In this document: piece after piece, positions 6,009 through 54,869 of the stretch
Numbering within the stretch: position 1 is the stretch's first letter
Layout of the letters: every line of letters begins with the position of its first letter
Origin: Rhodospirillales bacterium
GTDB taxonomy: Bacteria; Pseudomonadota; Alphaproteobacteria; Kiloniellales; JACOMY01
Assembly: GCA_014324045.1 (NCBI GenBank)
Contig: JACOMY010000005.1
Coordinates: 62,001-126,000, forward strand
Reading direction: 5' to 3'
DNA: 64,000 nt
Translations under genes and position numbers: made by a program
Notes under the pieces: generated by a model
Told to the model about the DNA's origin: nothing
Seen by the model: the letters and a program-made list of their open reading frames with translations, nothing else
The model's database searches: none

Positions 6009-6815
6009 TTAGCGATGCTTCCAGACGGCGGGGCGCTTCTCGATGAAGGCGTCGATGCCTTCGTTCGCGTCCTCCGCCATCATGTTGCAGGCCATGACCT
6101 CGGCTGCGTAGTCGTAGGCGGCCTCCAGCCCCTTCTCCAGTTGGGTGTAGACCATGCGCTTGCCGGCCGCGATCGCCACCGCCGACTTGGCGGCGATGCG
6201 GCCCGCCAGATCGGCGACCGCCCCGTCCAGTTGCCCGGCCGGGACCACGCGATTGACCAGCCCCCAATCGAGCGCGGTCGCCGCGTCGATGAAGTCGCCG
6301 GTGACCAGCATCTCGAAGGCGCGCTTGCGCGAGAGGTTGCGGGTGACCGCCACCGCCGGGGTGGAGCAGAAGAGGCCGGCGCCGATCCCGCTGGTGGCGA
6401 AACGCGCCTCCTCGGCAGCGACCGCGAGGTCGCACTGTGCCACCAGTTGGCAGCCGGCTGCCGTCGCCAGCGCGTGCACGCGGGCGATCACCGGCTTGGG
6501 AATGCCGGCAAGCGTCAGCATCATGCGGCTGCAGGCGCGGAAGAGCTCCCGGTAGTAGGCCCGATCCGGCCTGGCGCGCATCTCTTTCAGATCGTGACCG
6601 GCGCAAAAGGCCCTGCCCGCGGCGGCGATAACCACGACCCGCACCGCATCGTCGTCTCCGGCCCGCTGCAGCGCGCCGGTCATGGCGGCCAACAGCCCTT
6701 CCGACAGCGCGTTGAACTGCCGCGGCCGGTTCATCGTGAGGGTGAGGACTCCGTCGTGCAGATCTTCCAGAACGAGCGGCTCGCCGGCGGCCCAGGTTTC
6801 GGCGGGTGCGGCCAT
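6009..6815 (-). CDS. Enoyl-CoA hydratase/isomerase family protein
   Basis: 268-residue crotonase-fold enzyme, presumed to hydrate 2-enoyl-CoA in fatty-acid or amino-acid breakdown. The N-terminal TLTMNRPRQFNALSEGLLAA, the oxyanion-hole segment AAAGRAFCAGHDLKEM (near residue 70) and the second oxyanion region around ALATAAGCQLVAQCDLAVAA are clear. The ATG at 6815 was chosen over upstream in-frame starts because it has GGAGG about 9 bases before it. The two acidic residues expected of a true hydratase are not obvious: the second region reads FATSGIGAGLFCSTPAVAV. Isomerase or another crotonase activity is therefore possible. Divergently arranged from the thioesterase gene with an 85 bp gap. Confidence 0.88.
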   Translation of the reverse strand: MAAPAETWAAGEPLVLEDLHDGVLTLTMNRPRQFNALSEGLLAAMTGALQRAGDDDAVRVVVIAAAGRAFCAGHDLKEMRARPDRAYYRELFRACSRMMLTLAGIPKPVIARVHALATAAGCQLVAQCDLAVAAEEARFATSGIGAGLFCSTPAVAVTRNLSRKRAFEMLVTGDFIDAATALDWGLVNRVVPAGQLDGAVADLAGRIAAKSAVAIAAGKRMVYTQLEKGLEAAYDYAAEVMACNMMAEDANEGIDAFIEKRPAVWKHR

Positions 6816-6900
6816 GATGCAGGTTCCTCCTCTTGCCATGCCGGGTCCAGTTTGGCCTCTTGGTACGGCCGCAGGCAAGGACCGAGGGAGGAAGAAAGCC

Positions 6901-7374
6901 ATGACCGAACCGGCCGCGATCACCGTCGAGGCCTTCGAGGCGCTGTGCCGGAAGGAGCCCGGGTTCTACGACTTCTTCGGCCTAGTGACGGAGGAGATCG
7001 GACGGGGCAGTGCCCGCGTGCGCTTGCCACAAAAGCAGGAATTGCTGCGTCCCGGCGGGACCGTCAGCGGGCCGGCGCAGATGGGCCTGGCCGACTGCGC
7101 GATTTATGCCGCCTTGCTGGGCGCCATCGGCCCGGTACCGCTGGCCGTGACCACGAATTTCTCCATCAATTTTCTCTCCAAGCCGCAAGCGGGCGACCTG
7201 ATCTGCAGCTGTAGGCTGTTGAAATTGGGCAAGCGTCTGGCAGTGGCCGAAGCGCGGGTCTTCGGCAGCGACGCGGCCAAAGTCTACAGCCATGTCACCG
7301 CCACCTATGCAATTCCCCCAAGTGCAATTCCGCCGGGCGCTGTTGACGGTACTATAATATCGCAAATCGGCTGA
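6901..7374 (+). CDS. PaaI-family hotdog thioesterase
   Basis: 157-residue hotdog-fold protein. The motif PGGTVSGPAQMGLADCAIYA and the later TTNFSINFLSKPQAGDLIC match the PaaI/YigI thioesterase group, which hydrolyses acyl-CoA thioesters in the cytoplasm. ATG at 6901 is preceded by GGGAGGAAG; a longer in-frame upstream extension to 6682 would run antisense through the hydratase gene and is rejected. In many Alphaproteobacteria a PaaI-like gene sits directly upstream of rplM, as here. The true acyl substrate is unknown. Confidence 0.85.
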   Translation: MTEPAAITVEAFEALCRKEPGFYDFFGLVTEEIGRGSARVRLPQKQELLRPGGTVSGPAQMGLADCAIYAALLGAIGPVPLAVTTNFSINFLSKPQAGDLICSCRLLKLGKRLAVAEARVFGSDAAKVYSHVTATYAIPPSAIPPGAVDGTIISQIG

Positions 7375-7394
7375 CTTTCTGTGGCTTTTTCGGC

Positions 7395-7423
7395 TTGACA
7401 GGCCAAATAGGGGCCGCTAGGAA
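7395..7423 (+). promoter_or_regulatory. Probable sigma-70 promoter of rplM-rpsI
   Basis: TTGACA at 7395-7400, a 17-base spacer, then TAGGAA at 7418-7423. The -35 element is perfect and the spacing ideal; the -10 is weak. It lies ~105 bases before the rplM start in the only sizeable non-coding gap upstream. Confidence 0.5.
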
Positions 7424-7527
7424 GTGCGGCTTCGGGAGTTTGGTTCGGGAACTGGACGGCGGCGATGCGGGTCGGTCCCCGGCGGCGCGTTTTTCCTGCT
7501 AATTCCAAAGATTATGGACTGAGGGCG

Positions 7528-8031
7528 ATGAAGACCTACTCAGCGAAGCCGTCCGAGATAGAGAAGAAATGGATCCTGATCGACGCCGACGGCCTGGTTC
7601 TGGGCCGTATGGCCGCAGAGATCGCAAAGATCCTGCGCGGCAAGCACAAGCCGCTCTTCACCCCGCACTTGGACTGCGGCGATAACGTCATCGTGATCAA
7701 TGCGGCCAAGGTGAAGGTCACGGGCGACAAGCTGGCCAAGCGCAAGTTTCATTGGCATACCGGCTATCCCGGCGGCATTAAGGAGCGCAGCTTGGGCGAG
7801 ACGCTGAGCGGCCGCTTTCCAGAGCGTGCGATTGTCAAGGCGGTCGAGCGCATGATCGCCCGTGGACCGCTGGGCCGCCGGCAGATGCGGAACCTCCGTG
7901 CCTATGCCGGCGCCGACCATCCGCATGCGGCGCAACAGCCGGAGGTTTTGGACCTAGCGGCGCGCAATTCGAAGAACACAAGGGTCAAAGAACACAAGGG
8001 TCGAAGAACACAAGGGCATCCAGCAGTATGA
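7528..8031 (+). CDS. rplM: 50S ribosomal protein L13, with repeat-derived C-terminal tail
   Basis: 167-residue large-subunit protein. [49 protein letters not shown] and [20 protein letters not shown] are classic L13 segments. Alphaproteobacterial L13 normally ends shortly after [17 protein letters not shown]. Here the frame continues ~18 residues through three copies of a 16 bp repeat (7969-8016), giving a basic tail with [16 protein letters not shown]. Because 16 is not a multiple of three, each copy is read in a different frame. The stop overlaps the rpsI start (ATGA), so the tail now provides the coupling to rpsI. GAGGG precedes the ATG. Confidence 0.97.
7969..8016. repeat. 16 bp tandem repeat, three near-perfect copies, inside the 3' end of rplM
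   Basis: Three adjacent 16-base copies of TCGAAGAACACAAGGG at 7969, 7985 and 8001; the middle copy has A instead of G at its third base. It lies within the coding 3' end of rplM, 12 bases before the rpsI start. Confidence 0.95.
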
Positions 8032-8516
8032 GCGAAGAGAACGTCGCCGGAGAGATCATCACCGGCTTGGCCGATCTGGCCGAGGCCGTCCGGCCGGCAG
8101 AGGTTCCGCCGGCACCCAAGCGCGACAACCAGGGCCGTTCCTACGCCACCGGCCGCCGGAAGGACGCGGTGGCCCGCGTTTGGATCAAGCCGGGCAGCGG
8201 CAGGATCACCGTCAACAAGCGTGCCTTCGAGGTCTATTTCGCCCGTCCGGTGCTGCGCATGGTGATCAAGCAGCCCTTCGAGGCGGCGAACCGCAACCGT
8301 CAGTTCGACGTCGAGTGCACTGTCGCCGGCGGTGGCCTCTCCGGCCAGGCCGGTGCGTTGCGGCATGGCATCTCCCGGGCGCTGATCTGCTACGAACCGG
8401 CGCTGCGCCGGGTTCTCAAGCGCGGCGGCTTCCTGACCCGCGATCCGCGCAGCGTCGAGCGCAAGAAGTACGGCAGGGCCAAGGCCCGCCGCAGATTCCA
8501 GTTCTCGAAGCGCTAA
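8028..8516 (+). CDS. rpsI: 30S ribosomal protein S9
   Basis: 162-residue small-subunit protein. The conserved body begins at [20 protein letters not shown] and continues through [26 protein letters not shown] and the invariant basic C terminus [17 protein letters not shown], whose final Lys-Arg reaches the P-site tRNA. An acidic ~35-residue N-terminal extension precedes the body, as in other alphaproteobacterial S9 proteins. ATG at 8028 overlaps the rplM stop. In related genomes argC usually follows directly; here about 4.7 kb of other genes intervenes. Confidence 0.97.
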
Positions 8517-8810
8517 AGAGCGCCATAGCTACAAGTAGGAGTGCAAGGGTAGGGGGTGCAAGTAGAGCTGCCGGCCGCAACGCCAGCCTCTGCCACGACC
8601 AAGTCCGCGCCCGCGCTGGAGCTGACTACCCGCCGGGGATCGCCGCGCCCCTCCTCAACGGACGCTGGCGTGCAAATCTGGGCCGCCCCAGCAGACGCCC
8701 TGCAATGGCCTTGTAGCACCCCCGCAGCCGCTCTCCCAGCAAAACAAAGGGTGGCGCCCGGATTTTCCAAGCCTTATGCACTCCCCGAAAATTGCCGGCA
8801 AAGCCGCTTT
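8517..8810. other. Non-coding gap after rpsI with weak short repeats
   Basis: No convincing gene. Immediately after the rpsI stop, the segment 8528-8570 repeats CAAGTAGGAG/CAAGGGTAGGG/CAAGTAGAG at 12-15 base spacing, a weaker version of the 15-16 bp arrays seen elsewhere in this window. Open frames across the rest look random. Confidence 0.5.
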
Positions 8811-10106
8811 TCAGAAGTGGCGTTCGAGTCCGATGGTTCCGTACGGTTCCCAATAGGAAAAGGCCTCGACACTCGAGCCTATCCGGTCGAGGCCCAGTCT
8901 GATATAGGGGGTAAAGCCGTTCGGCAGAATAATGCGGCTGCTGTCGATCGTCAGGCCCATGCCGAAGTTGAGTTCGTCAAGCCCTCCGTAGAGCAGTGAG
9001 TCCTGGTCGAAGGTTCTCCGTTCGATATAGGCGCTCGGCTGGAGGCCGATCCCAAAGCCTGCGTCGAACCCGCCGTAGGCGGTCAGCCGGCTCCTCTTAT
9101 AGTCGTCGAAGAGGGAATCGGCATCCCTGTCCTCGAAGTATAGCTGTGCGCCTAGGGAAGCTCTCGGTGTGATGGAGTAGTTGAGGGACGCACTTAGTGT
9201 CAGGGTCCGGCCGTCCCGCGAATCGTCTCTTGGGCTGTTGATATCGTACCAGGCCGGCGAGAAGCTGTAGGTCGTGCCGTGGCTGTCGCGCTGTAGGAAG
9301 GTTACGCGCGCGCCCACGCGATCCTCCTGGGTCGTTTTTTCCACGATCCGGCGCCTTACCGAGGGTGCAACCGTGATCGAGGAGGTGGGCCAGACGAACC
9401 GCATCCCCACCTCCGCGCCGAACGAGATGTCGTCGTGCTCGGATTTCCGGTCATTTTCCCCGCCGGCGAAGAACCGGCCGGTTTCCCCGTTGGCGAAGAT
9501 CCGGGCGAAGCCTAACGCGCCATAGCGGCTGCCGGACAGGAAGGGGAGTTCCTCGCGCCTAGACAGGTTCAAGGAAAACCCGAGTCCTATGACGCTTTCG
9601 TTGTCGCGGTTGAGCGTGAAGGGGAGCGTCGCGCCGCCCAGATTGAGATTGAGCGTATTGCTGGCGTAGTTCCGCGTCGCTCCCAAGCGGACCAACGAGA
9701 AATCGGCGTCCCAATCGAAGCCGCGCCGGGCATCGATGGCGCGGAGAAATCGCAATATGTTTTGGCGCACCAGCTCCGGAATGTCGCCCGACGACAGCAC
9801 CGAGAGGAATTCGGAGCGGGCGCGCGCCCATTGCTCCGAGACGAAATAGGCACGGGCCAGTTCCAGACGTACGCGCACCAGATCGGGATTGCGCGACAGG
9901 ATCTCGGCAAGGATCATGGCGGCCTCGCGGGGTTGATCTGCCTCCAGACGTTCCATTGCTCGGTTGAATTGACGCCTGACCGAAAAATCTTCGGCGGCGG
10001 GGTCGGAGGGAGCGGATGTTTGGGCGGCGGCTGGCAGCAGCGGCGCCCAGACACAAAGCACAACACAAACGAGAAGCCATGCAGCAGCAGATAGGAGGGC
10101 ACCCAT
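8811..10106 (-). CDS. Slam-like outer-membrane protein (surface lipoprotein assembly modifier family)
   Basis: 431 residues from the ATG at 10106 (a TTG 60 bases upstream would overlap the preceding gene). A signal peptide (LLSAAAWLLVCVVLCVWAPLLPAAAQ) is followed by a TPR-like segment with RLEADQPREAAMILAEIL and LVRVRLELARAYFV. A long C-terminal region has alternating strands and many aromatic/glycine pairs, ending in a barrel-type terminal phenylalanine (GTIGLERHF). This layout, an N-terminal TPR domain plus a ~14-strand barrel, is that of Slam (DUF560), which helps lipoproteins cross the outer membrane to the surface. The gene just upstream on the same strand encodes a lipoprotein (frame-broken), a natural candidate client. 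Assignment rests on architecture and motif wording. Confidence 0.75.
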   Translation of the reverse strand: MGALLSAAAWLLVCVVLCVWAPLLPAAAQTSAPSDPAAEDFSVRRQFNRAMERLEADQPREAAMILAEILSRNPDLVRVRLELARAYFVSEQWARARSEFLSVLSSGDIPELVRQNILRFLRAIDARRGFDWDADFSLVRLGATRNYASNTLNLNLGGATLPFTLNRDNESVIGLGFSLNLSRREELPFLSGSRYGALGFARIFANGETGRFFAGGENDRKSEHDDISFGAEVGMRFVWPTSSITVAPSVRRRIVEKTTQEDRVGARVTFLQRDSHGTTYSFSPAWYDINSPRDDSRDGRTLTLSASLNYSITPRASLGAQLYFEDRDADSLFDDYKRSRLTAYGGFDAGFGIGLQPSAYIERRTFDQDSLLYGGLDELNFGMGLTIDSSRIILPNGFTPYIRLGLDRIGSSVEAFSYWEPYGTIGLERHF

Positions 10107-10146
10107 CGACCTGCTGCGTAGCTCAAGTTTGTGGCAAACAAGACCG

Positions 10147-10733
10147 TTAGCCACAGGATTTTGCAACCTTTAATATTACTGCCTTGGGGTAGAGTCTCTT
10201 CTTTCTCTTTTTATGGTTTGATGGCACCGAAAGCTCCGACGATTGCGTTATCTCCTCTGACCTGTTCAAAGGTTCCCGAGGTTTCACGTTGATTGTCACC
10301 GAAGCACCCGCTTGGATCCGGCCCCCTCCGCCAAAGATCAGCCGATCTGCCGTACAGGTACCGTCGGCAGCCACCGTGACCTCCTCGTATGGATCCATCG
10401 ACAAACTGTCCCCTGTGCTCAGATTCCTAACGTCGAGGAATTCAACATCCATTAGTAGTGTCCCCGTCAGTGTCCATTCGAAGAGTCGGCGAGCTTGACC
10501 ATGGTGGAGGTTCCGATCTTCACCGACCGGCCTGGCGATTACCATGCCCACCCAAAGCATTTCCGCATTTTCAGCCAATGCCGTCGCAACGTTGACTATT
10601 TACACGTCATTTGCGCGCAGCGCCGCTCTGCGCTCTTGTGATCGTCGTCTGTGGGATCTGGATTGCTACAACCGGTAATAGCACTGCCCAAGGCAAGAAC
10701 CATGGCGCAACCGAAAAGCAACTTCGAAGTCAT
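10147..10733 (-). pseudogene. Lipoprotein gene interrupted by a one-base frame break; candidate Slam client
   Basis: The 5' segment (10596-10733) encodes MTSKLLFGCAMVLALGSAIT then GC, a textbook lipoprotein signal with lipobox AITGC, followed by SNPDPTDDDHKSAERRC and a stop after 45 residues. A second open frame starts within three bases of that stop and runs to 10147 (ending LKVAKSCG). Adding one A to the minus-strand AAA run (10599-10601) would join both into a single ~195-residue lipoprotein. The second part includes EFLDVRNLSTGDSLSMDP and LIFGGGGRIQAGASVTINV, which look beta-rich. The region is noticeably AT-richer than its surroundings. It ends 40 bases before the Slam-like ATG. This is either a genuine frameshift mutation or a homopolymer sequencing error. 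No family recognised. Confidence 0.6.
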
Positions 10734-40162: not shown

Positions 40163-40700
40163 CTAAACCTCCAGCCATTTCTCCCGCACACGCACATCCG
40201 GCGTGTCGCGCAGCGCCTGCGGTATGCCCTCGCAGACGATGCGGCCGTGGCCCATCATCTAGACGCGCCGCGGGATATCGAGGGCGATCGGGGGCTTTTG
40301 CTCGACCAGCAGGATGGTGCTGCTCTTGGCAACTTCGGCGATGAGCTCGCCAACCTGTCGGACGATCAAGGGGGCCAGCCTTCCGTCGGCTCATAGGCCA
40401 TGATCAAAGCCGGAGCCTCCATCAAGGTTCGGCAGGTAATCAGCATCTGCTTCTCGCTGCCCGACAGCACGCCGGCCGGGCTGTCGGCGCAGGCTTGCAG
40501 GCTGGAGAAGATCTGCAGCATCTGTTCGATGCTCCATCGACTGGGATGGCGCATGTCCTTGATGCCCAGCAGCAGGTTCTGACGGACCGTCAGAAGGGGA
40601 AAGACATTGCGGTTTCGGGCACATAGCTCAGACCCGGCGGATGATCCGGTAGTTGGGTCGGCCAGCAGGTCGCGGACATGCTCCAGATGGAGGAGAGCCA
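40163..40700 (-). pseudogene. livF remnant (branched-chain amino acid ABC ATPase)
   Basis: Minus-strand reading recovers, across several frames, NVFPLLTVRQNLLLGIKDMR, SGSEKQMLITCRTLMEAPAL, EPTEGWPP, then IVRQVGELIAEVAKSSTILL, PPIALDIPRRV-stop-MMGHGRIV, and the C terminus REKWLEV. This is the ordinary LivF sequence from about one third into the protein to its end. The Walker A region is missing, the frame is broken at least twice and one stop is internal. The signature reads SGSEKQM instead of SGGEKQM, and Walker B YEPTEG instead of DEPTEG. Confidence 0.85.
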
Positions 40701-40859
40701 GCAAATCCTTGTTGCGCTGATGTGCGTCGGCCAGGTCCGCGGCCTAGTACCAGTTCGGCCTTGCTCCATCGGCTCTTCGCCGGCACGCCAATGGAACAGC
40801 ATCTCCACCAGGATGATAAGGCCCAGGGTCATGGTGCCGGCAGCAGACCGGTGCCATCT

Positions 40860-41300
40860 GCGTCAATTTTCGCTAGCGGCGGGCGATGCGCACTCGCTCG
40901 ACTAGGTCGCCAAGCTGCCCGAAATGATGAGGACCAGATAGTGCGCTCGCTTCGGGTCGTAGCCGATGAACTCCGCCCATTGCAGGTTGTCGCGCACGGC
41001 GTTGGAGAGGCGGCCCAACGGCGTCTTTTTGGTGAAGGCCCACATGCTTAGGGTTACAAGGAAGGCTCAGAAGGCGATGAACCAATTAAGACCTCGATGG
41101 GCCAGAGGCCGAAGGCCTATGGACCCACCATACAGTCGCCGGAGATGCCCTTTTCTCGCCGCCGAAGATCGAGACCGAACATGATCCGACAGCGGCCGCC
41201 AACTCGCCTATGCCCAACGAGATCATGGCGAAGGGCCAGCCGATCCCCGCCCCGGCCAGGAGTCCGACGGCGAAGCCGACGAGCGGCAGACAGAGAGAGC
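40860..41300 (-). pseudogene. livM remnant (branched-chain amino acid ABC permease)
   Basis: The minus strand encodes, in different frames, VGFAVGLLAGAGIGWPFAMI then SLGIGELAAAVGS, FGGEKGISGDCMVGP, and later FTKKTPLGRLSNAVRDNLQW then AEFIGYDPKRAHYLVLIISG and a stop at LAT. These are recognisable LivM segments with shifts and missing stretches. Between it and the livF remnant (about 40700-40860) only unreadable sequence remains where livG would be expected. Confidence 0.8.
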
Positions 41301-41520
41301 GAAGAGGTCGACAAGCGATATGTCGATCGACACCACGAAGGTCTGCAGCATGCCGATCAAGATTGAGGCGATGAAGACACCGGTCAGCGAGCCTATGCCA
41401 CCGGCCACTACCACCATGAAGACGATGGGGTCCAGGATGAAGGCCATGGCCCACTCCGTCACCAGCAGCGCGCCGCTGATGACGTCGGCCAACCCAGCCA
41501 AGGCACAGCCGGTGCCGAAG
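41300..41520 (-). pseudogene. livH remnant (branched-chain amino acid ABC permease)
   Basis: The minus-strand open segment with FILDPIVFMVVVAGGIGSLT, GVFIASILIGMLQTFVVSID and ISLVDLFAL corresponds to the C-terminal third of LivH. The N-terminal part is absent and the C-terminal end is frame-shifted into the livM remnant. Confidence 0.8.
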
Positions 41521-41548
41521 CGCAGCGGTCGAGGCGGGGGGTGCGCTT

Positions 41549-41740
41549 TAGCTCGGCCGCTTCAGCACGCAGGTCGTCCGGGCACAGTCGTCGTTCCCTA
41601 AAAATACACAGCCATCGGTTTTGAAGCCGTAGCCCGTGCCTTCGACATTCTCATGCCATTTGGTCACCTGCATCACGCGATTGAGCGCGCTCGTGCTTAT
41701 GCCCACACGATGCACCAAGCCCGACAGCGATGGCTAACCT
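41549..41740 (-). pseudogene. livK-type binding-protein C-terminal remnant
   Basis: The minus-strand frame TSALNRVMQVTKWHENVEGT, GYGFKTDGCVFLGNDDCART then TCVLKRPS and stop looks like the end of a branched-chain amino-acid binding protein. Just upstream in another frame KTLRLAIAVGLGAS resembles a signal peptide, which would mean most of the middle has been deleted. Confidence 0.55.
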
Positions 41741-41826
41741 TAGCGTCTTTGCACTGATATGCTCTCATGTTTATTTAACATTCTCTGTATAAAATATTGA
41801 AATTATTTGATTTTTTGAATGTTGAA

Positions 41827-42140
41827 CTAGGCCACCTCGAACAAACCTGCCACGCCCATGCCGCCGACGCACACGGTACGGTCGTATATTTAACGCCGCG
41901 TCGCTTGCCCTCGATCAATGCCGTGCCGACCAGACGGGTGCCGGACATGCCGTATGGATGTTCCATCGCGATGGCGCGACCGTTCACGTTGTAGATCTCC
42001 GGATCGATGTCCAGGCGGTTGCGGCAGTAGCATGTTTGATCGCATGGCCGCCCAGCTCTTGGCCTGGGTGTCGTTGAAAGCGCCGCAAAGGCCTTGCCGA
42101 TCGGCGTGCACGCGGTGGAGATGATTAAGGCCTCTCTCTT
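41827..42140 (-). pseudogene. Acetyl-CoA acetyltransferase (thiolase) remnant with large internal deletion
   Basis: The minus strand begins with REALIISTACTPIGKAF and, one frame over, GLCGAFNDTQAKSWAAMRSN (thiolase N terminus). It then jumps to LDIDPEIYNVNGRAIAMEHP, YGMSGTRLVGTALIEGKRRG and, after a further shift, VCVGGMGVAGLFEVA-stop (thiolase C terminus with the NGGAIAxGHP and catalytic-cysteine regions). About three quarters of the gene is missing; the motif cysteine CIGGG reads CVGG. Confidence 0.85.
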
Positions 42141-42240
42141 GGGGCTACCCTCTCGATGATCGACAGATCTAGCCAGTCACTTGCGCCTAGATCTTCGCCT
42201 GCCATCTCCGAACACTCAGCCAAGGTGACATGGCACCAGC

Positions 42241-44780: not shown

Positions 44781-45518
44781 CTAATCCTCCTTGAAATCGT
44801 CAAATTCGTCTGGGAACCGACGCGGCAACAAGGCGGACTGGAACCAGAGTAGATATGTATAGATCGAATAGACCGGGCGGCCGGTTGCGCGCCGGATGTC
44901 CGCTGCGTAGGGGACCATGTTCGTGCATTCCAGAAGAATTGCGCCGACATCAGGATGGCTACTGACTAGCTGACGCGCCGCGGCCACGTTCTCTGAGCGT
45001 GCCTTCGCAAAGTCGATCTCCGGCTGGTTTTCTAGGATTTGGGTCGTGAAATGCGACACAGCGCCGGTCCCGACCACCGGTGTGCCTTCGGGAATACCAG
45101 CCGCATCCAGATGTTGCTGTGTGAGGCTTGCGGCAGATATTGTAAGGATCCCGATGGTTCGCCCCGGTGGCAAGGTTTGCTGGATCGAACGTCCCTGCAA
45201 TAGTGACGAGGTGGCAATGGGAACATCGAGCGCAGCCTTTAGTTTACTCTGAAAGGACACAAGAAATCCACAATTGGTTGAAATGCCATCACATCCTGCT
45301 CGTATCAGATCTCGACCCGCTTCGATAAAACTCTGAAGAAGCGGATCTGGGTTTTTGCGCACAACAACATCCGGAGAGGCAGACGGAACAATTCGATATT
45401 GAACGGGAAAGGGCCATGTTGCCGCATTACCGATATCGCCGGGAATGCGCGGAAACCTTGTATTGAGCATCAAAATTCCAAGTGTTGCACCGTACACATT
45501 CTTCCCGCCGGTGATCAT
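44781..45518 (-). CDS. Aspartate/glutamate racemase superfamily protein
   Basis: 245 residues. Two cysteine motifs at the positions used for 1,1-proton transfer in this fold: GCDGISTNCGFLVSF (near residue 82) and GAILLECTNMVPYAADIRRA (near 198). The spacing, the N-terminal GILMLNTRFPRIPGDIGNA and RTIGILTISAASLTQQHLDA fit the Asp/Glu racemase and hydantoin racemase / maleate isomerase group. ATG start at 45518. Divergent from the ThDP enzyme gene across ~146 bases, which could hold a shared control region. Proposed role: epimerising or isomerising the substrate imported by the adjacent TRAP system; substrate unknown. Confidence 0.88.
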   Translation of the reverse strand: MITGGKNVYGATLGILMLNTRFPRIPGDIGNAATWPFPVQYRIVPSASPDVVVRKNPDPLLQSFIEAGRDLIRAGCDGISTNCGFLVSFQSKLKAALDVPIATSSLLQGRSIQQTLPPGRTIGILTISAASLTQQHLDAAGIPEGTPVVGTGAVSHFTTQILENQPEIDFAKARSENVAAARQLVSSHPDVGAILLECTNMVPYAADIRRATGRPVYSIYTYLLWFQSALLPRRFPDEFDDFKED

Positions 45519-45664
45519 ATCGTGTCTCCCAATTCAAAATGTGAGAGGATGATGGAGAACCTGTTCCTCTGCTTTACCCACCATCGTAGCTTAGAGCTTG
45601 CCTTGATAACCACACTGTGCATAGTCCTGGATGTAGCGTTGTGGCGAGCAAAGGCAAGCGGTTT

Positions 45665-47356
45665 ATGTCCAATTCTATGAGTGGATCAGACGCGATGGTG
45701 CGGATGCTCGAAGCGCATGGCGTGACGCATGTTTTCGGTCTTTGCGGTGACACCACATTACCACTTTACGACTCGTTGCTGCGGCTGGACCACGGTATCA
45801 CGCATGTGCTCACACGCGATGAACGGTCTGCGACTTACATGGCCGATGGATTTGCCCGCGTCACTGGCAGGCCCGGCATCTGCGAGGGGCCGTCGGGAGG
45901 CGGCGCCACCTACATCCTTCCCGGTCTCATCGAGGCCAATGAATCGAGCTGCCCGGTCCTAGCAATCACCTCGGACATCTCCGTCGCCAGCTACGGAAAG
46001 TTTCCGCTGACCGAAGTCGATCAGGAAGCACTGATGCGGCCGCTGACCAAATGGAACACGGTAATCAAGCGGGCCGAACACATCCCGCGTATGGTCCGGA
46101 CTGCGTTTCGCGCCATGACGACGGGGCGCCCCGGCGCCGCGCACCTTGGTCTGCCTTACGACGTCCAGTATGACCCCGTAGACAGCGAAGACATCTGGGC
46201 CGACAGCGCGCTGAGTGCCTATCCGGCCTATCCCGCCGCGCCTGAACCGGGTGCGGCGGAGGCTGCCGTTGATGCCATTCTGTCGGCAAAATCGCCGCTG
46301 ATCGTGTGTGGCGGCGGGGTTGTCATCGCCGACGCGATGCAAGAGCTCGACCGGTTGGTGCGTCGTCTGGACATCCCGGTGGCCACGTCGATTTCCGGCC
46401 AGGGCGCGCTTGCCGAAACACACCCCAATGCTGTTGGCGTCGTCGGTTCCAATGGCGGCACCGATCAGACCTGGGAAGCCATGGAAGGGGCCGATCTCGT
46501 GGTGTTCATGGGCTGTCGGGCCGGCTCAACGACGACAGCGCGGTGGGAAGCACCCAAGCCCGGTGCGCGGATCGTGCATTTCGACAGCGACCCAATGGTC
46601 ATCGGCGCCAATTATCCGACCGAAGTCGGCGTCGTGGCCGATCTGAAACTGGCGCTGGCCGAGGTGAACAGGGTGCTCGATGCTCGCGGTAAGGGCTTGT
46701 TAACCTTCGACGGCGCGGCTGCGGTGGCCGATCTGAAGGCCCGGATGTTCGCGGAATTCGACGCGCTGGCGCAGAGCGATGCGTTGCCCTTGAGGCCGGA
46801 GGCCGTGATTGCTTCCTTGCAGTCATCTTTGCCCGAAGAGGCCGTTGTTGTATCCGATCCGGGCACAAGCTGCCCCTATGTCTCCGCCTATTACCGGCTG
46901 CCCAACCCTGGCCGGCATTTCATCACCAACCGGGCTCACGGGGCCTTGGGCTATTCGCTTTCGGCTGCGCTGGGAGCATGGTATGGACGGCCTGACGCCA
47001 AGATCGTCGCGTTGATGGGGGATGGGTCTTTTGGGTTCACCTGTGGGGAGCTTGAGACCGTCTGCCGCGTGGGAGCCAATATAACCTTCATCGTGCTGTC
47101 GAATGCGAGTTTCGGCTGGATCAAGGCCAGCCAGAAAGCCGACAAGGGCGGACGATATTACAATGTAGATTTTTCCCGCACGGATCATGCTGCCGTCGCC
47201 GCTGCCTATGGCGTGAAAAGTTGGCGGACTGAGACCCGGGAGCAGTTTGAAAACTGCCTGCGTGAAGCCGTGAATCATTACGGTCCCACCCTAGTCGATG
47301 TGATCACACAACCTTTGGAAGGGGCAAATGCACCTGTTAGGCGCTGGATGGGATGA
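45665..47356 (+). CDS. Thiamine diphosphate-dependent enzyme, acetolactate synthase-like
   Basis: 563 residues from ATG 45665 (MSNSMSGSDAMV; an alternative ATG lies four codons on). The N-terminal PYR domain has VTHVFGLCGDTTLPLYDSLL and the catalytic glutamate expected in LTRDERSATYMADGFARVTG. The central domain contains GALAETHPNAVGVVGSNGGT. The C-terminal PP domain has the ThDP/Mg motif GDGSFGFTCGELETVCRVGA then NITFIVLSN. The N-terminal GPSGGGATY replaces the common GPGxTN of acetolactate synthase, so it is probably not IlvB but a decarboxylase or C-C lyase/ligase of the wider family. Followed by the FAD oxidoreductase and TRAP genes on the same strand. Confidence 0.9.
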   Translation: MSNSMSGSDAMVRMLEAHGVTHVFGLCGDTTLPLYDSLLRLDHGITHVLTRDERSATYMADGFARVTGRPGICEGPSGGGATYILPGLIEANESSCPVLAITSDISVASYGKFPLTEVDQEALMRPLTKWNTVIKRAEHIPRMVRTAFRAMTTGRPGAAHLGLPYDVQYDPVDSEDIWADSALSAYPAYPAAPEPGAAEAAVDAILSAKSPLIVCGGGVVIADAMQELDRLVRRLDIPVATSISGQGALAETHPNAVGVVGSNGGTDQTWEAMEGADLVVFMGCRAGSTTTARWEAPKPGARIVHFDSDPMVIGANYPTEVGVVADLKLALAEVNRVLDARGKGLLTFDGAAAVADLKARMFAEFDALAQSDALPLRPEAVIASLQSSLPEEAVVVSDPGTSCPYVSAYYRLPNPGRHFITNRAHGALGYSLSAALGAWYGRPDAKIVALMGDGSFGFTCGELETVCRVGANITFIVLSNASFGWIKASQKADKGGRYYNVDFSRTDHAAVAAAYGVKSWRTETREQFENCLREAVNHYGPTLVDVITQPLEGANAPVRRWMG

Positions 47357-47449
47357 ATATCGGATCTGGTGATTGACAATCGCAAGGTGAAAGATCTGAA
47401 CTGAAGACTAGGATCATGAGCTTATGAGGGCGAGTAGATTCCAAACCGA

Positions 47450-48679
47450 GTGATCATAGTGGGGGCCGGGATCGTTGGCGTTTCGACCGGCATCTGGCTG
47501 CGGCGCTTTTGTGATGCCGAGGTCGTAATCCTTGATCGCTTGGCGCCTGGAGAAGGTACATCCCACGGAAATGCCGGTGTGCTTGCGGCCTGTTCCGTGG
47601 TGCCAGTCACTATGCCTGGGCTGTTTGGCAAGGTGCCAGGCCTGTTGCTGAACCCGGATTTTCCGCTGTTCATGCGATGGGGGTATTTCCCGAAGCTTCT
47701 GCCCTGGCTGATAAAATACCTCTCGCACGCCAATGACCGTGACACGCGCCGGATTGCGGACGGCCTGACCATGATCATCGGGGACTGCGTGGACCAGCAC
47801 AAGGCGCTTGTGGCCGATACAACCGCAGCAGGCTGGGTGCAGGACAGCGACTATTCTTTTGCCTATGCTAGCCGATCTGCGTTCGAAGGTGACGCCTATA
47901 CTTGGGCCTTACGTCATGAGGCGGGGTTTGACCCAGTGATCCGCGAAGGCGATGCCATCCGCGAGTTTGAACCCAACCTGTCGCCGAGCATCGGGCTGCT
48001 GGCGACTATGAAGAACCATGGCTTCGTGCGTGACCCTGGCGCTTACGTGAAGGCCTTGGCCGCGGCGTTTCAAGAGCTTGGCGGTACGATCCGGCAGGCC
48101 GAGATCACGGATTTCGAAATCTCGGATGCCAAGGTCACAGGCGTTGTGACAAAGGCCGGCATGGAGCCATGCACGCATGTCGTGCTTGCTACCGGCGTGT
48201 GGTCCAAACCGTTGATGCAAAAGCTTGGTCTTTCGATCCCACTGGAATCCGAACGCGGCTATCACATTATTTTTGAAGAGGTCCAAGGCGGCCCCGCGCA
48301 TCCAATCATGGTCGCAAGCGGAAAATTCGTCGCCACGCCAATGGCTGCTGGTCTGCGCTGTGCCGGCGTGGTGGAATTCGGCGGTTTGCAGGCTGATCTG
48401 AACCCGGATGTGCTGAAGCTTATGCGCAAACAGGCGCGCGCAGCTTTTCCCGAACTATCGCACGGACAGGAGATCGAGTGGTTCGGCCATCGCCCCGCGC
48501 CCTCCGATAGCCTGCCCCTGATTGGTGAAATCCGCCAGACCGGCATCTTCACAGCCTTTGGACACCATCACATCGGATTGACCGGCGGCCCGAAAACCGG
48601 CCGATTCGTGGCTAGCCTCATCGCCGCAAAACCTGTCAATATAGATCTCAGGGCATTCAGCCCCATGCGGTTTGCCTGA
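47450..48679 (+). CDS. DadA-like FAD-dependent amino-acid oxidoreductase
   Basis: 409 residues. The FAD-binding dinucleotide fold starts at once: IIVGAGIVGVSTGIWLRRFC. Further DAO-family segments: LGLSIPLESERGYHIIFEEV, RCAGVVEFGGLQADLNPDVL and FGHHHIGLTGGPKTGRFVAS. The start is GTG at 47450; an in-frame stop at 47435 leaves no room for a longer version, so the N terminus is a few residues shorter than in DadA. It has no cleavable signal. Predicted to oxidise a D-amino acid (or similar amine) to a 2-oxo acid, passing electrons to the respiratory chain. Its place between the ThDP and TRAP genes suggests one pathway. Confidence 0.88.
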   Translation: MIIVGAGIVGVSTGIWLRRFCDAEVVILDRLAPGEGTSHGNAGVLAACSVVPVTMPGLFGKVPGLLLNPDFPLFMRWGYFPKLLPWLIKYLSHANDRDTRRIADGLTMIIGDCVDQHKALVADTTAAGWVQDSDYSFAYASRSAFEGDAYTWALRHEAGFDPVIREGDAIREFEPNLSPSIGLLATMKNHGFVRDPGAYVKALAAAFQELGGTIRQAEITDFEISDAKVTGVVTKAGMEPCTHVVLATGVWSKPLMQKLGLSIPLESERGYHIIFEEVQGGPAHPIMVASGKFVATPMAAGLRCAGVVEFGGLQADLNPDVLKLMRKQARAAFPELSHGQEIEWFGHRPAPSDSLPLIGEIRQTGIFTAFGHHHIGLTGGPKTGRFVASLIAAKPVNIDLRAFSPMRFA

Positions 48680-48728
48680 GCAAGAACAAGAAAAATTAAG
48701 GACCAAACAGAACCAACAGGAGAGAGCT

Positions 48729-49706
48729 ATGAAGACCCTAACAACGACCCTAGCCGCACTGGCGACGGCCGCGCTCGCGACACTCCCCGCCATGGCCCAG
48801 GAAAAATGGGATCTGCCAATGGCCTATTCCGCTTCTAACTTCCATTCGGTGACCGGGGCCGAGTTTGCCCAATGTGTGACCACCGGGACTGGCGGCGCCA
48901 TCGAGATCACTACGCACCCCTCTGGGTCACTTTTTGCGGGCGCGGATATCAAACGTGCCGTTCAAACCGAGCAGGTTCCGATCGGTGAACGGCTGCTGTC
49001 CGGGCACCAGAACGAGAGTGCGATTTTTGGTTGGGATTCGGTGCCGTTCCTTGTGTCTTCCTTTGACCAGCACGAAAAGCTTTACGAAGTGGCCAAGCCA
49101 TATCTGGAAGAGCTTCTGGCTGAACAAAACCTGACATTGCTCTATTCCGTGCCTTGGCCGCCGCAGGGGCTTTACTTCAACAAGGAGGTAAACTCAGTCG
49201 CGGATATGGAAGGTATCAAATTCCGCTCCTACAACAACGCCACCGCGCGCCTTGCCGAACTGACTGGCATGCTTCCGGTACAGATTGAAGCGGCCGAGAT
49301 CAGCCAGGCTTTTGCCACCGGCGTGGCCGAATCCATGGTGTCCTCGGGGGCGACGGGCTATGATCGCAAGGTTTGGGAAAGCCTGAGCCATTTCTACGAG
49401 GTCGATGCCTGGTTGCCACGCAACTACATGCTGATCAATTCGGACGTCTGGGCCGATGTATCCGAGGCCAACAAGAACATCATCAATGCCTGTGCGGGCA
49501 TGGCCGAATATGCAGGCACATGGCGGGCCAAGGAATATACCGGCTTCACGCTGGCCGGTCTGGCCGCTGGTGGTATGACCGTCGCACCTGCCGGTGACAC
49601 GCTGATGGCTGAGTTGAAAGCAATCGGTGAGACCATGACAGCCGAATGGCTCGAAGCGGCCGGTGAGACCGGCAAGAACATCGTCGACGCGTATAACGCA
49701 CAGTAA
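48729..49706 (+). CDS. dctP: TRAP transporter substrate-binding protein (DctP family)
   Basis: 325 residues from ATG 48729, preceded by AGGAGAGAGCT. Signal peptide LAALATAALATLPAMAQ, then mature EKWDLPMAYSASNFHSVTGA. The DctP hallmark with conserved asparagine and arginine appears in NSVADMEGIKFRSYNNATAR, followed by LPVQIEAAEISQAFATGVAE. Its periplasmic fold clamps carboxylated ligands, the arginine binding the carboxylate. First gene of a complete P-Q-M set. Ligand unknown but expected to be an organic acid or amino acid processed by the neighbouring enzymes. Confidence 0.93.
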   Translation: MKTLTTTLAALATAALATLPAMAQEKWDLPMAYSASNFHSVTGAEFAQCVTTGTGGAIEITTHPSGSLFAGADIKRAVQTEQVPIGERLLSGHQNESAIFGWDSVPFLVSSFDQHEKLYEVAKPYLEELLAEQNLTLLYSVPWPPQGLYFNKEVNSVADMEGIKFRSYNNATARLAELTGMLPVQIEAAEISQAFATGVAESMVSSGATGYDRKVWESLSHFYEVDAWLPRNYMLINSDVWADVSEANKNIINACAGMAEYAGTWRAKEYTGFTLAGLAAGGMTVAPAGDTLMAELKAIGETMTAEWLEAAGETGKNIVDAYNAQ

Positions 49707-49773
49707 TTCAGACAGGCGGTGCTGGCCAAATATTGGCTGGCACCGTCCTATACGAACGGCGGAGACCGGATCG

Positions 49774-50310
49774 ATGAATGCTGCGCTTCGCAAACTGCGC
49801 TGGATACTGGATGCTATCTACAGCGTGGCTGGGGTGGTCGCAGCGCTTTGCCTGATTGCCATTCTAGCGCTGATCGTCGCGCAGATGGTTGCCCGCTGGA
49901 CCGGTGAAATCTTTCCCGGCGCGGCGAATTATGCGGGGTACGCCATGGCGGCAGCGAGCTTTTTTGCCTTTGCCAACGCCCTGAACCGCGGCTCGCATAT
50001 CCGCGTGTCATTGGTGTTGAATGCGATGCCCGACGGGGTCCGCCGCTACATGGAAATCTGGTGTTTCGGAATTGGCGCGGCAGTGATGTGGTATTTCACC
50101 TATTATGCCTATTGGTTCACCTACTGGTCGTGGAAATTCAACGAGGTCAGCCAGGCGCAGGACGCCACCCCGATGTGGATCCCGCAATCGGTCATGGTGA
50201 TCGGCGGTGCAATCCTAGCGCTAGCGCTGACTGACCACCTCATCAATGTCATCTTGCACAGCGACCACCGCATCAAGCGCGATCTTGTCGACCAGAGCCA
50301 CGCGAAGTAA
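49774..50310 (+). CDS. dctQ: TRAP transporter small permease (DctQ family)
   Basis: 178 residues from ATG 49774. Four hydrophobic helices: VAALCLIAILALIVAQMVAR, YAGYAMAAASFFAFANALNR, FGIGAAVMWYFTYYAYWFTY and SVMVIGGAILALALTDHLIN. The conserved GSHIRVSLVLNAMP loop after helix 2 is typical of DctQ. It pairs with the large permease whose ATG lies six bases past its stop. Confidence 0.92.
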   Translation: MNAALRKLRWILDAIYSVAGVVAALCLIAILALIVAQMVARWTGEIFPGAANYAGYAMAAASFFAFANALNRGSHIRVSLVLNAMPDGVRRYMEIWCFGIGAAVMWYFTYYAYWFTYWSWKFNEVSQAQDATPMWIPQSVMVIGGAILALALTDHLINVILHSDHRIKRDLVDQSHAK

Positions 50311-50316
50311 CGGGCC

Positions 50317-51627
50317 ATGGAAGAGTTCTACGCAATCGTCTTGTTTCTCTTTGTGCTGTTTCTCCTGCTAGGCTCCGGCGTCTGGGTCGGACTCGCCCTG
50401 ATGGGCGTGGCCTGGGTGGGCATGGAACTGTTCACCACGCGGCCGGTTGGCGACACGATGATCACCACGATCTGGACGTCCTCCTCCAGTTGGACCCTGA
50501 CGGCGCTGCCGCTTTTCATCTGGATGGGGGAGATCTTGTTCCGAACACGCCTGTCCGAAGACATGTTCCGCGGCTTGTCTCCCTGGCTGGCGCGGCTGCC
50601 GGGCGGGTTGATCCACACCAACATTGTCGGTTGCACGGTCTTTGCGGCCGTGTCGGGCTCGTCAGCAGCTACGCTGACCACCGTGGGCAAGATGTCGATC
50701 CCGGAATTGAGGGCGCGCGACTATCCCGAAAGCATTCTGATCGGCACCCTTGCAGGAGCCGCGACGCTCGGCCTGATGATCCCACCGTCGCTGGCGCTGA
50801 TCGTCTATGGCGTCACCGTGAACGAGAGCATCACACAGCTCTTTTTCGCGGGCGTCTTTCCAGGCCTGTGCCTCGCTTTGATGTTCATGAGCTATGTGGC
50901 CATCTACTCGCAGCTATCGCGGTCGTGGAACCCTAGGCTGGAAATTGGCATGTCCTTTGTCGAAAAGCTCAAGAATTCCCGGTTTCTGATCCCCGTACTC
51001 TGCCTGATCTTCGTGGTCATCGGCTTGATGTATGCGGGCCTAGCGACGGCCACAGAGGCTGCAGCGGTCGGGGTTATCGGTGCGCTGGTTCTGGCCGTTA
51101 GCCAGGGTGCGCCGACATGGAGCACTTTCGTCACCAGCCTGAAGGGCGCGACCCGGACGTCGGCCATGATTGCGTTGATCCTTGCGGGGGCAGCATTTTT
51201 GAAACTGGCCATGGGCTTCACCGGCCTGCCGCGCGCTCTGGCAGACGGGATCGCAACAATGGAATTGTCGCGTTTTGAGCTGCTGATGATCCTTATGGTC
51301 TTCTACATTGTGCTGGGCATGTTTCTCGATGGCATTTCTTCGGTGGTGCTGACCATGGCCGTGGTGGAACCCATGGTGCGCGAAGCCGGGATCGATTTGA
51401 TTTGGTTCGGTATTTTTGTCGTCGTGGTTGTGGAAATGGCACAGATCACACCGCCGATCGGGTTCAATCTCTTTGTGCTTCAAGGCATGACAGAACACGA
51501 GATGGGTTACATCACACGCGCGGCCTTCCCGATGTTCCTGATCATGGTTTTGATGTGCTTTGTGCTGATCTGGATCCCGGACATAGCACTCTGGTTGCCT
51601 GAAAACATGCGGCAAGTTCCACAGTAG
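50317..51627 (+). CDS. dctM: TRAP transporter large permease (DctM family)
   Basis: 436-residue, strongly hydrophobic Na+-coupled permease with about 12 membrane segments. Family markers: TNIVGCTVFAAVSGSSAATL, AGAATLGLMIPPSLALIVYG, FLDGISSVVLTMAVVEPMVR and the C-terminal EMAQITPPIGFNLFVLQGMT. Complete in length. Last intact gene of the island; a short coding-like fragment follows at 51658. Confidence 0.95.
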   Translation: MEEFYAIVLFLFVLFLLLGSGVWVGLALMGVAWVGMELFTTRPVGDTMITTIWTSSSSWTLTALPLFIWMGEILFRTRLSEDMFRGLSPWLARLPGGLIHTNIVGCTVFAAVSGSSAATLTTVGKMSIPELRARDYPESILIGTLAGAATLGLMIPPSLALIVYGVTVNESITQLFFAGVFPGLCLALMFMSYVAIYSQLSRSWNPRLEIGMSFVEKLKNSRFLIPVLCLIFVVIGLMYAGLATATEAAAVGVIGALVLAVSQGAPTWSTFVTSLKGATRTSAMIALILAGAAFLKLAMGFTGLPRALADGIATMELSRFELLMILMVFYIVLGMFLDGISSVVLTMAVVEPMVREAGIDLIWFGIFVVVVVEMAQITPPIGFNLFVLQGMTEHEMGYITRAAFPMFLIMVLMCFVLIWIPDIALWLPENMRQVPQ

Positions 51628-53966: not shown

Positions 53967-54869
53967 TCAGGGATTGGCAAGAAAGAAAGCGCTCAAGGCC
54001 GCTGCCACGGTATCCGGCTGTTCCTCCTGCAGAAAGTGGCCGCAGGGCAGGCTTCGTCCCTCGACGCGGTCGGCCCACTTGCGCCAGAGCGTTATCGGCG
54101 TGGGCTCGGCATCGCCGATGTAGTCGCGGCCCCAGAGCGCCAGTACCGGACAGGCCAGCCTGCGGCCTGAATCGCGATCCTCCCGGTCGTGCTGCCAGTC
54201 TAAGGTTACGCTTCTAGGGTTACGCCGGCGCGGTAGTCGGCACAGGTGGCGGCGATCACCTCCGGTTTGTCGAACTGTGCGAGATAGGTGGAGATAGCGG
54301 CTGCGTTGAGGGCGTCGGGTCTGCCCGCCCAACGACGCAGAAATGAGGCGACGATGATGTCCTTGGCAGCAGCGACGACGGGCTCAGCGATCTCGCCGGG
54401 TTGGGCCAGGAAGGGCCAGTGCCACGCAGCAATCGCACCCGGCGCATCCATGGTTTCCCAGACTTCTAAGGTCGGGACGATGTCGACGGCAGCGAAAGCG
54501 CTGACCCGCTCCGGGTGATCGAGGCAGAGGCGGTATGCGACGCGCCCGCCGCGATCATGACCGGCGAGTGCGAAGCGCGAATAGCCAGCTTCTCCATAAC
54601 CCGCAGCATATCCAGTGCCATGGTCCGCTTGGCGTAGGCAACATTATCGGGATCGGGTGTGGGGCCGCTGCTCTCGCCGTAGCCCCGCAGGTCAGGGATC
54701 ACCAGGGCGAAGTGCTGTGCCAGGCGCGGTGCGATCAGTCGCCAAGTGGCATGCGTCTGGGGGTAGCCGTGCAGCAGCAAGACAAGAGAGGTGGCCCGGC
54801 GCCGCCGCAGCGTAGATAGATCTGAGCCTCACCCAGGTCGATGCGCCGCTCTTCGAATCCTTCCAACAT
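53967..54869 (-). pseudogene. Alpha/beta hydrolase (haloacetate dehalogenase-like), broken by at least three frame changes
   Basis: Starts at ATG 54869 (MLEGFEERRIDLGEAQIYLR) but shifts near 54790 before LLLHGYPQTHATWRLIAPRL. A second shift follows EKLAIR (near 54575): the expected YSRFALAGHDRGGRVAYRL, carrying the nucleophile Asp, is readable one frame over. A third break near 54210 is a 14 bp tandem duplication (AGCGTAACCTTAGA after GCGTAACCCTAGA), after which CPVLALWGRDYIGDAEPTPI and LPCGHFLQEEQPDTVAAALS finish the protein. The ordered fragments are those of fluoroacetate dehalogenase/epoxide-hydrolase relatives. The C-terminal histidine region (PCGHFLQEEQP) is intact. Confidence 0.85.

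Follow-up and report, generated by a model that had tools for sequence, protein, structure and literature searches.

An alphaproteobacterial catabolic unit, apparently undescribed, that joins a racemase-family protein, a flavoprotein, a thiamine diphosphate enzyme and a TRAP importer

Do six neighbouring genes of a Rhodospirillales bacterium belong to a single catabolic pathway and, if so, which compound does it consume? The genes occupy positions 44781-51627 of the window, i.e. the whole analysed stretch of 64,000 nucleotides (contig JACOMY010000005.1, positions 62,001 to 126,000). They encode a racemase-family protein (RAC), divergent from the five others, a thiamine diphosphate (ThDP) enzyme, a DadA-like flavoprotein (DAO), and the DctP, DctQ and DctM proteins of a tripartite ATP-independent periplasmic (TRAP) transporter. 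A first-pass annotation, made from the letters alone, had proposed that this island is one catabolic unit corresponding to no named pathway. Searches of the open-access literature for the gene set likewise found no description. The comparisons presented here indicate that the island is a genuine catabolic unit, conserved and apparently undescribed. What is new about it is the ThDP clade, the combination of genes and their shared regulation; no protein fold is new.

Linkage of the genes across genomes

A scan of one genome per species gave 80 loci with a ThDP identity of 65-83%, a set that annotated plasmid records and genomes of the window's own order enlarged to 103. Neighbouring genes were placed by tblastn and counted when located within 6 kb of the ThDP gene. 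The 103 loci being related, the counts represent non-independent events: RAC is found in 73 of them, DAO in 68 and DctP in 56. A lack of such conservation in other genomes, which would have refuted the annotation, is thus not observed. Rearranged loci provide a stronger argument for linkage than these raw counts. The exact order of the window (RAC divergent from ThDP-DAO-DctPQM, without a GntR gene) is repeated in L034, L086, L088 and L119, whereas gene order or strand is altered, yet linkage retained, in L015, L024, L052, L055, L077 and L118. Globally, the linkage spans many genera and several alphaproteobacterial families with differing gene orders, and relatives of the ThDP core also occur in gammaproteobacterial metagenome-assembled genomes (Granulosicoccaceae) and in Burkholderiales.

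The same association was reached by an independent entry, in which DctP alone served as query against 289 alphaproteobacterial genomes and returned 64 carriers. In the 40 loci read, RAC is near DctP in 18, DAO in 12, the ThDP gene in 7 and a 5-oxoprolinase (PxpABC or OplAB) in 5. For example, L142 carries PxpABC-DctMQP-DAO beside RAC, with no ThDP gene there, and PxpBCA adjoins a complete unit in L009. Because the six-gene linkage is kept across genera and families in different orders and is recovered from the DctP-based search, it is far above chance. The canonical unit is larger than that of the window: it adds a gene encoding a GntR regulator (77 of the 103 loci) and often genes for an enolase-superfamily, muconate-cycloisomerase-like enzyme (31 loci) and a LysR regulator (21 loci). 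Therefore, the window carries a reduced copy.

Predicted operator and feeder genes

A palindrome, CTGTATACAR, lies upstream of the ThDP gene, and its core TGTATACA is exact in 63 of the 75 loci with an adjacent GntR gene (for example L009, L010, L102 and L108), against 5 of the 28 loci without one. Two mismatches or fewer to TTGTATACAA were found in 64 of these 75 loci, compared with about four expected from shuffles. The palindrome was recognised in the same loci that were used for counting, but the enrichment is too large for this to matter. As the GntR gene and the palindrome co-occur, the regulator probably binds this sequence, which is thus a predicted operator. In 1.69 Mb, 97 exact TGTATACA sites were found, 71 of them at most 200 bp upstream of a ThDP gene, which is the unit member most often preceded by the operator; most of the others precede RAC, GntR, TctC, DAO or other genes of the unit. 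Genome-wide counts in 10 genomes revealed few sites in nine and none in the tenth, similar to a reversed-pattern control: the operator count per genome alone is not informative, its position is. A generic GntR half-site pattern performed no better than shuffles.

No TGTATACA site was found throughout the 64-kb window. In the divergent intergenic region between RAC and the ThDP gene (45519..45664), CTGTATACAR is absent and its nearest match has four mismatches; furthermore, a search of the window's genome found no close GntR or enolase-superfamily homologue. Regulator and operator are therefore both missing.

Variant loci show which other genes accompany the core. In seven loci (L037, L059, L061, L066, L067, L075 and L082), the operator is located between MmgE/PrpD-GntR-SDR-ThDP (SDR, short-chain dehydrogenase/reductase) and a divergent set led by an aspartate dehydrogenase (AspDH) gene. 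DAO and RAC follow in this set except in L082, which has them in another part of the locus, and aconitase X (AcnX) belongs to it except in L075; its swivel subunit was confirmed in L059. L109 independently carries MmgE-AspDH-ThDP. This variant is possibly a longer version of the pathway. In L121, L122 and L123, the operator precedes a gamma-glutamyltransferase (GGT)-family gene and the locus includes a TAXI-type receptor; a TAXI-TRAP receptor is near the GntR-ThDP core of L120, which has no GGT-family gene, and in L021 and L031 a GGT-family gene lies beside GntR-ThDP-TctCBA. In variant loci, both MmgE/PrpD and GGT genes are preceded by CTGTATACAR. This company of a pyroglutamate receptor, 5-oxoprolinase, GGT, Asp/Glu-type racemase and AspDH points to acidic amino acids, or their lactam or gamma-glutamyl forms, rather than to sulfonates.

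Tentatively, and with clearly less than even confidence, the ThDP clade may be regarded as the constant core of a widespread pathway under GntR control, catalysing a reaction as yet unassigned to any enzyme family, in which an acidic 2-oxo acid would be decarboxylated or carboligated. Interchangeable modules would feed this core: racemase, flavoprotein and TRAP importer; AspDH, AcnX, MmgE/PrpD and a tripartite tricarboxylate transporter (TTT); or GGT and a TAXI importer.

Two further neighbourhoods touch on these partners. The enolase-superfamily enzyme of L028 (9698-10837) and its orthologues are close to structures 3i6e and 3i6t, with 'muconate cycloisomerase' as the only label; its neighbourhood suggests a role as an amino-acid epimerase. 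In L102, from the R. pomeroyi megaplasmid, genes of a xanthine-dehydrogenase-family molybdenum hydroxylase and a MoaD/ThiS gene (6395-10251) reach RAC-GntR-ThDP; a further partner might be an oxidase of aldehydes or N-heterocycles.

Enzymes, importer and setting of the window copy

The ThDP enzyme is encoded on the plus strand by an open reading frame (ORF) spanning 45617-47356, which opens with a GTG at 45617, the likelier start being the ATG at 45665 (read off the sequence, like the starts proposed below for DctP and DctQ). It carries three thiamine pyrophosphate Pfam domains. The annotation had considered its chemistry probably not to be IlvB-like on the basis of the motif GPSGGGATY. This motif is real and recurs, with slight variation, in the family rows listed; E. 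coli IlvB has SGPGATN at this place. Along with NRAHGALGY and FGWIKA, it is characteristic of the family in the alignment. Among the matches listed, the protein scores below the cut-off of every NCBIfam family, including acetohydroxyacid synthase (TIGR00118, 368.7 bits for a cut-off of 538.35), glyoxylate carboligase (287.9 for 791), sulfoacetaldehyde acetyltransferase (Xsc; PRK07525, 255.3 for 620) and 5-guanidino-2-oxopentanoate decarboxylase (AruI, 291.1 for 500). In a tree including ten references (E. coli IlvB, IlvI, Gcl, PoxB and Oxc; AlsS; AruI; three paralogues from the window's genome), the 21 neighbourhood ThDP proteins do not cluster with any characterised enzyme and form a single clade (95/96); the references are on long branches, so that the tree singles out no nearest one.

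The Phe-Gln pair of acetohydroxyacid synthases (GTDAFQE) is replaced by Leu-Thr (GKFPLTE in the window, PLTE or TLTE in the family rows listed), whereas the catalytic Glu is retained (TRDERxA; RHVEGA in E. coli Gcl). An identity as acetohydroxyacid synthase (IlvB/IlvI) was rejected on the score, the absence of Phe-Gln and the separate clade. Glyoxylate carboligase was also rejected, since Val replaces the catalytic Glu in Gcl but not in this family, and the score is under the cut-off. The closest solved structure is BbmA.

RAC (44781-45518, minus strand) passes the cut-offs of PF01177 (34.7 bits for 31) and of NF005679, the PRK07475 subfamily (308.7 bits for 231). Both of its catalytic-type cysteines, Cys83 and Cys198, are invariant (100%) in the window and in 79 loci. 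Its AlphaFold2 (AF2) model (pLDDT 91.7) retrieves, using Foldseek, arylmalonate decarboxylase (AMDase), hydantoin racemase and aspartate racemase with a TM score of about 0.6. The Pfam score, the fold and the two cysteines place RAC in the Asp/Glu/hydantoin racemase superfamily. The top Foldseek match is the Gly74Cys mutant of AMDase (3ixm); wild-type AMDase has one cysteine, and the G74C mutant gains racemase activity. An AMDase identity is ruled out, as RAC has both cysteines, as in 3ixm, where the wild type has Gly74. A proC-like gene (pyrroline-5-carboxylate reductase) adjoins RAC in L016, L028, L041 and L045 (Pseudovibrio, Halocynthiibacter), hinting at a cyclic imine.

DAO (47450-48679, plus strand) belongs to PF01266 (163 bits) but scores only 148.2 bits against the NCBIfam D-amino acid dehydrogenase PRK00711 (DadA), whose cut-off is 383. 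Its AF2 model (pLDDT 92.4) matches glycine oxidase, D-Arg dehydrogenase, iminodiacetate oxidase and flavin opine dehydrogenase in Foldseek, and the protein is predicted to be DadA/glycine-oxidase-like by sequence and fold. RAC and DAO also adjoin as a pair in loci with TTT or TAXI importers, which agrees with the proposed combination of a racemase with D-amino-acid oxidation.

The importer genes adjoin on the plus strand and, all three families being confirmed, encode the dedicated TRAP transporter that the annotation had recognised. The DctP ORF (48672-49706) opens with a TTG at 48672, an ATG followed by a signal peptide being likely from 48729; that of DctQ (49663-50310; PF04290, 72.6 bits) opens with a GTG at 49663, with a likely ATG at 49774; DctM (50317-51627) matches PF06808 with 265 bits and TIGR00786 over its cut-off. 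DctP shares 53.8% identity with 6wgm, presumably annotated as a pyroglutamate receptor, and 41.0% and 35.7% with 2pfz and 2pfy, which we take to be the Bordetella pertussis receptors DctP6 and DctP7. Four residues, R185, W162, Y187 and E106 (numbered from the TTG start), are invariant in the loci and in these three structures. DctP6 and DctP7 were crystallised with pyroglutamate, according to the passages of PMC5812351 and PMC13274462 that refer to Rucktooa et al. 2007, and DctP7 binds it with a dissociation constant (KD) of 0.3 uM (PMC13274462). The ligand site of this receptor type uses Trp and Tyr (PMC11574862), and the carboxylate is held by an Arg in such receptors (PMC4646407). W162, Y187 and R185 are therefore probable ligand contacts. 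The identity to the three structures and the shared Arg, Trp and Tyr place DctP in the DctP6/DctP7 pyroglutamate subfamily, and pyroglutamate binding is predicted. Close relatives of DctP adjoin 5-oxoprolinase genes. In L155 (5177-6175) and L161 (12292-13290), DctP loci without a ThDP gene, a 2-oxoglutarate/Fe(II) dioxygenase gene directly follows DctPQM-RAC.

The annotation had described the six ORFs as intact among decayed flanks, and both points hold. Coordinates, strands and Pfam families, the expected one being confirmed for each ORF, all agree. Codon comparison with L010 gives nonsynonymous differences (pN) of 0.06-0.19 and synonymous differences (pS) of 0.65-0.76; this low pN relative to pS shows that the six genes are maintained, all under purifying selection. 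Remnants are found on both sides, i.e. a thiolase C-terminal part (41775-42176), branched-chain permease and ABC fragments (41223-41561 and 40366-40743), all on the minus strand, and an alpha/beta-hydrolase broken into two pieces (53967-54332 and 54466-54780, minus strand), with intact MaoC, crotonase and metallo-hydrolase genes interspersed. An Rfam scan of 42.0-54.5 kb gave zero matches at the gathering threshold, and a tRNA-Arg called by ARAGORN at 47448-47542 was judged spurious, being inside the DAO coding sequence and without Rfam support. The window proteins are closest to those of L010 and L009, both from Rhodobacterales (83% for ThDP and 92% for DctM to L010), whereas ThDP proteins from the window's own order share 56-67% identity. 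As the Rhodobacterales copies are the closer ones, horizontal acquisition of the island is the likeliest reading.

Candidate substrates and known systems

With about evenly balanced confidence, the island can be read as a catabolic unit that has spread horizontally and serves an acidic or lactam amino acid (pyroglutamate, a glutamate or aspartate stereoisomer, or a close derivative). The classes of RAC, DAO and the ThDP enzyme are assigned from their sequences; order, substrate and product of the steps are proposed as follows. DctPQM would import the amino acid, RAC (and, in other loci, also the enolase-superfamily enzyme) would invert its alpha carbon, the flavoprotein would oxidise the D form to a 2-oxo or cyclic imino acid, and the ThDP enzyme would decarboxylate the 2-oxo acid or ligate the resulting carbanion to an acceptor, leading to central metabolism. 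Several points weigh against this proposal. Such a linear route is not universal, since R. pomeroyi (L102) has RAC-GntR-ThDP with no DAO or TRAP genes alongside, and in six loci GntR-ThDP is accompanied by a TTT importer alone. The accessible part of an R. pomeroyi transporter mutant screen lists no TRAP transporter of the island's type. Pyroglutamate found in a crystal structure may have been carried over, and the compound is a poor substrate for an amine-oxidising flavoenzyme, its nitrogen being an amide; glutamate, for its part, needs no ThDP step. As the lactam nitrogen is not an amine, it is probable that imported pyroglutamate first undergoes ring opening or that an amine analogue is the actual ligand.

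It is rather unlikely that the unit serves plain D/L-pyroglutamate use, in which RAC or the enolase-superfamily enzyme would racemise the lactam after TRAP import, a 5-oxoprolinase encoded elsewhere in the genome would yield L-glutamate, DAO would take D-glutamate and the ThDP enzyme would act later or separately. The subfamily of DctP, the PxpABC or OplAB genes adjoining its relatives and two Hydantoinase_B-family (5-oxoprolinase-type) genes in the window's genome are consistent with it, as are the RAC profile, nearest to hydantoin racemases, also active on five-membered lactams, and the resemblance of the enolase-superfamily enzymes to N-acyl-Glu racemases. However, it leaves the AcnX/MmgE variants unexplained, as well as the fact that the operator stands in front of the ThDP gene more often than of any other member. 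The AcnX, AspDH and MmgE/PrpD variants would fit a dicarboxylic amino acid that is substituted or N-linked (an opine, an iminodicarboxylate, beta-hydroxy or beta-methyl aspartate, or the like) and that on oxidation would provide a 2-oxo acid or glyoxylate to the ThDP enzyme. Iminodiacetate oxidase and flavin opine dehydrogenase are among the Foldseek neighbours of DAO but are no closer than glycine oxidase, and malate synthase G is close upstream of the GntR-ThDP pair in L104, a single case; this substrate class is judged unlikely.

The sulfonated acid suggested by the annotation, or a phosphonated amino acid, is very improbable. RAC is weakly similar to the cysteate racemase CuyB (19.8 bits) and GntR weakly resembles PhnR, but both similarities are well under the cut-offs, the importer belongs to the pyroglutamate subfamily, the alternative feeders are aspartate, glutamate or gamma-glutamyl enzymes and the loci examined hold no recognisable gene for sulfonates or phosphonates. 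Moreover, R. pomeroyi takes up cysteate by another system (PMC10130141). Finally, it is scarcely credible that the genes are mere neighbours hitchhiking on mobile DNA without a common pathway: the window copy has probably moved horizontally and sits among decayed genes, but the linkage is kept when genes are rearranged or importers replaced, and alternative feeder genes are marked by a common operator.

Roseobacters and further alphaproteobacteria feeding on dissolved organic matter carry the unit. If its substrate were named, the marine turnover of acidic, lactam or D-amino acids would gain a step, and several orphan families would receive a function at once, namely the ThDP clade, RAC of the PRK07475 subfamily and those enolase-superfamily proteins that are related to the solved structures 3i6e and 3i6t. 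Thanks to the operator and the modular feeders, cultured strains allow a direct test of the question.

Among known systems, B. pertussis DctP6 and DctP7 share the DctP subfamily and its Arg, Trp and Tyr, with a 5-oxoprolinase near some relatives, but the literature found mentions neither a ThDP enzyme nor a RAC/DAO unit alongside them, and 5-oxoproline use by B. pertussis has not been demonstrated (PMC13274462). Acetohydroxyacid synthase and glyoxylate carboligase have the same ThDP domain architecture as the island enzyme, with weak overall similarity and a separate clade for the latter. Marine D-Glu catabolism by DgcA/DgcN, which involves an enolase-superfamily racemase, has its theme in common with the island, but the enolase-superfamily protein of the loci reaches 96 bits for a cut-off of 400 and no N-acetyltransferase was recognised. 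The route combining D-arginine dehydrogenase and the 2-ketoarginine decarboxylase AruI also places a flavoprotein before the ThDP-dependent decarboxylation of a 2-oxo acid; the island enzyme misses the AruI model and its importer is of the carboxylate type, not one for bases. The roseobacter taurine and isethionate pathways, which combine TRAP import, a flavin dehydrogenase and the ThDP enzyme Xsc, follow an analogous logic, from which the island differs by a ThDP enzyme that is not Xsc and by the possession of a racemase.

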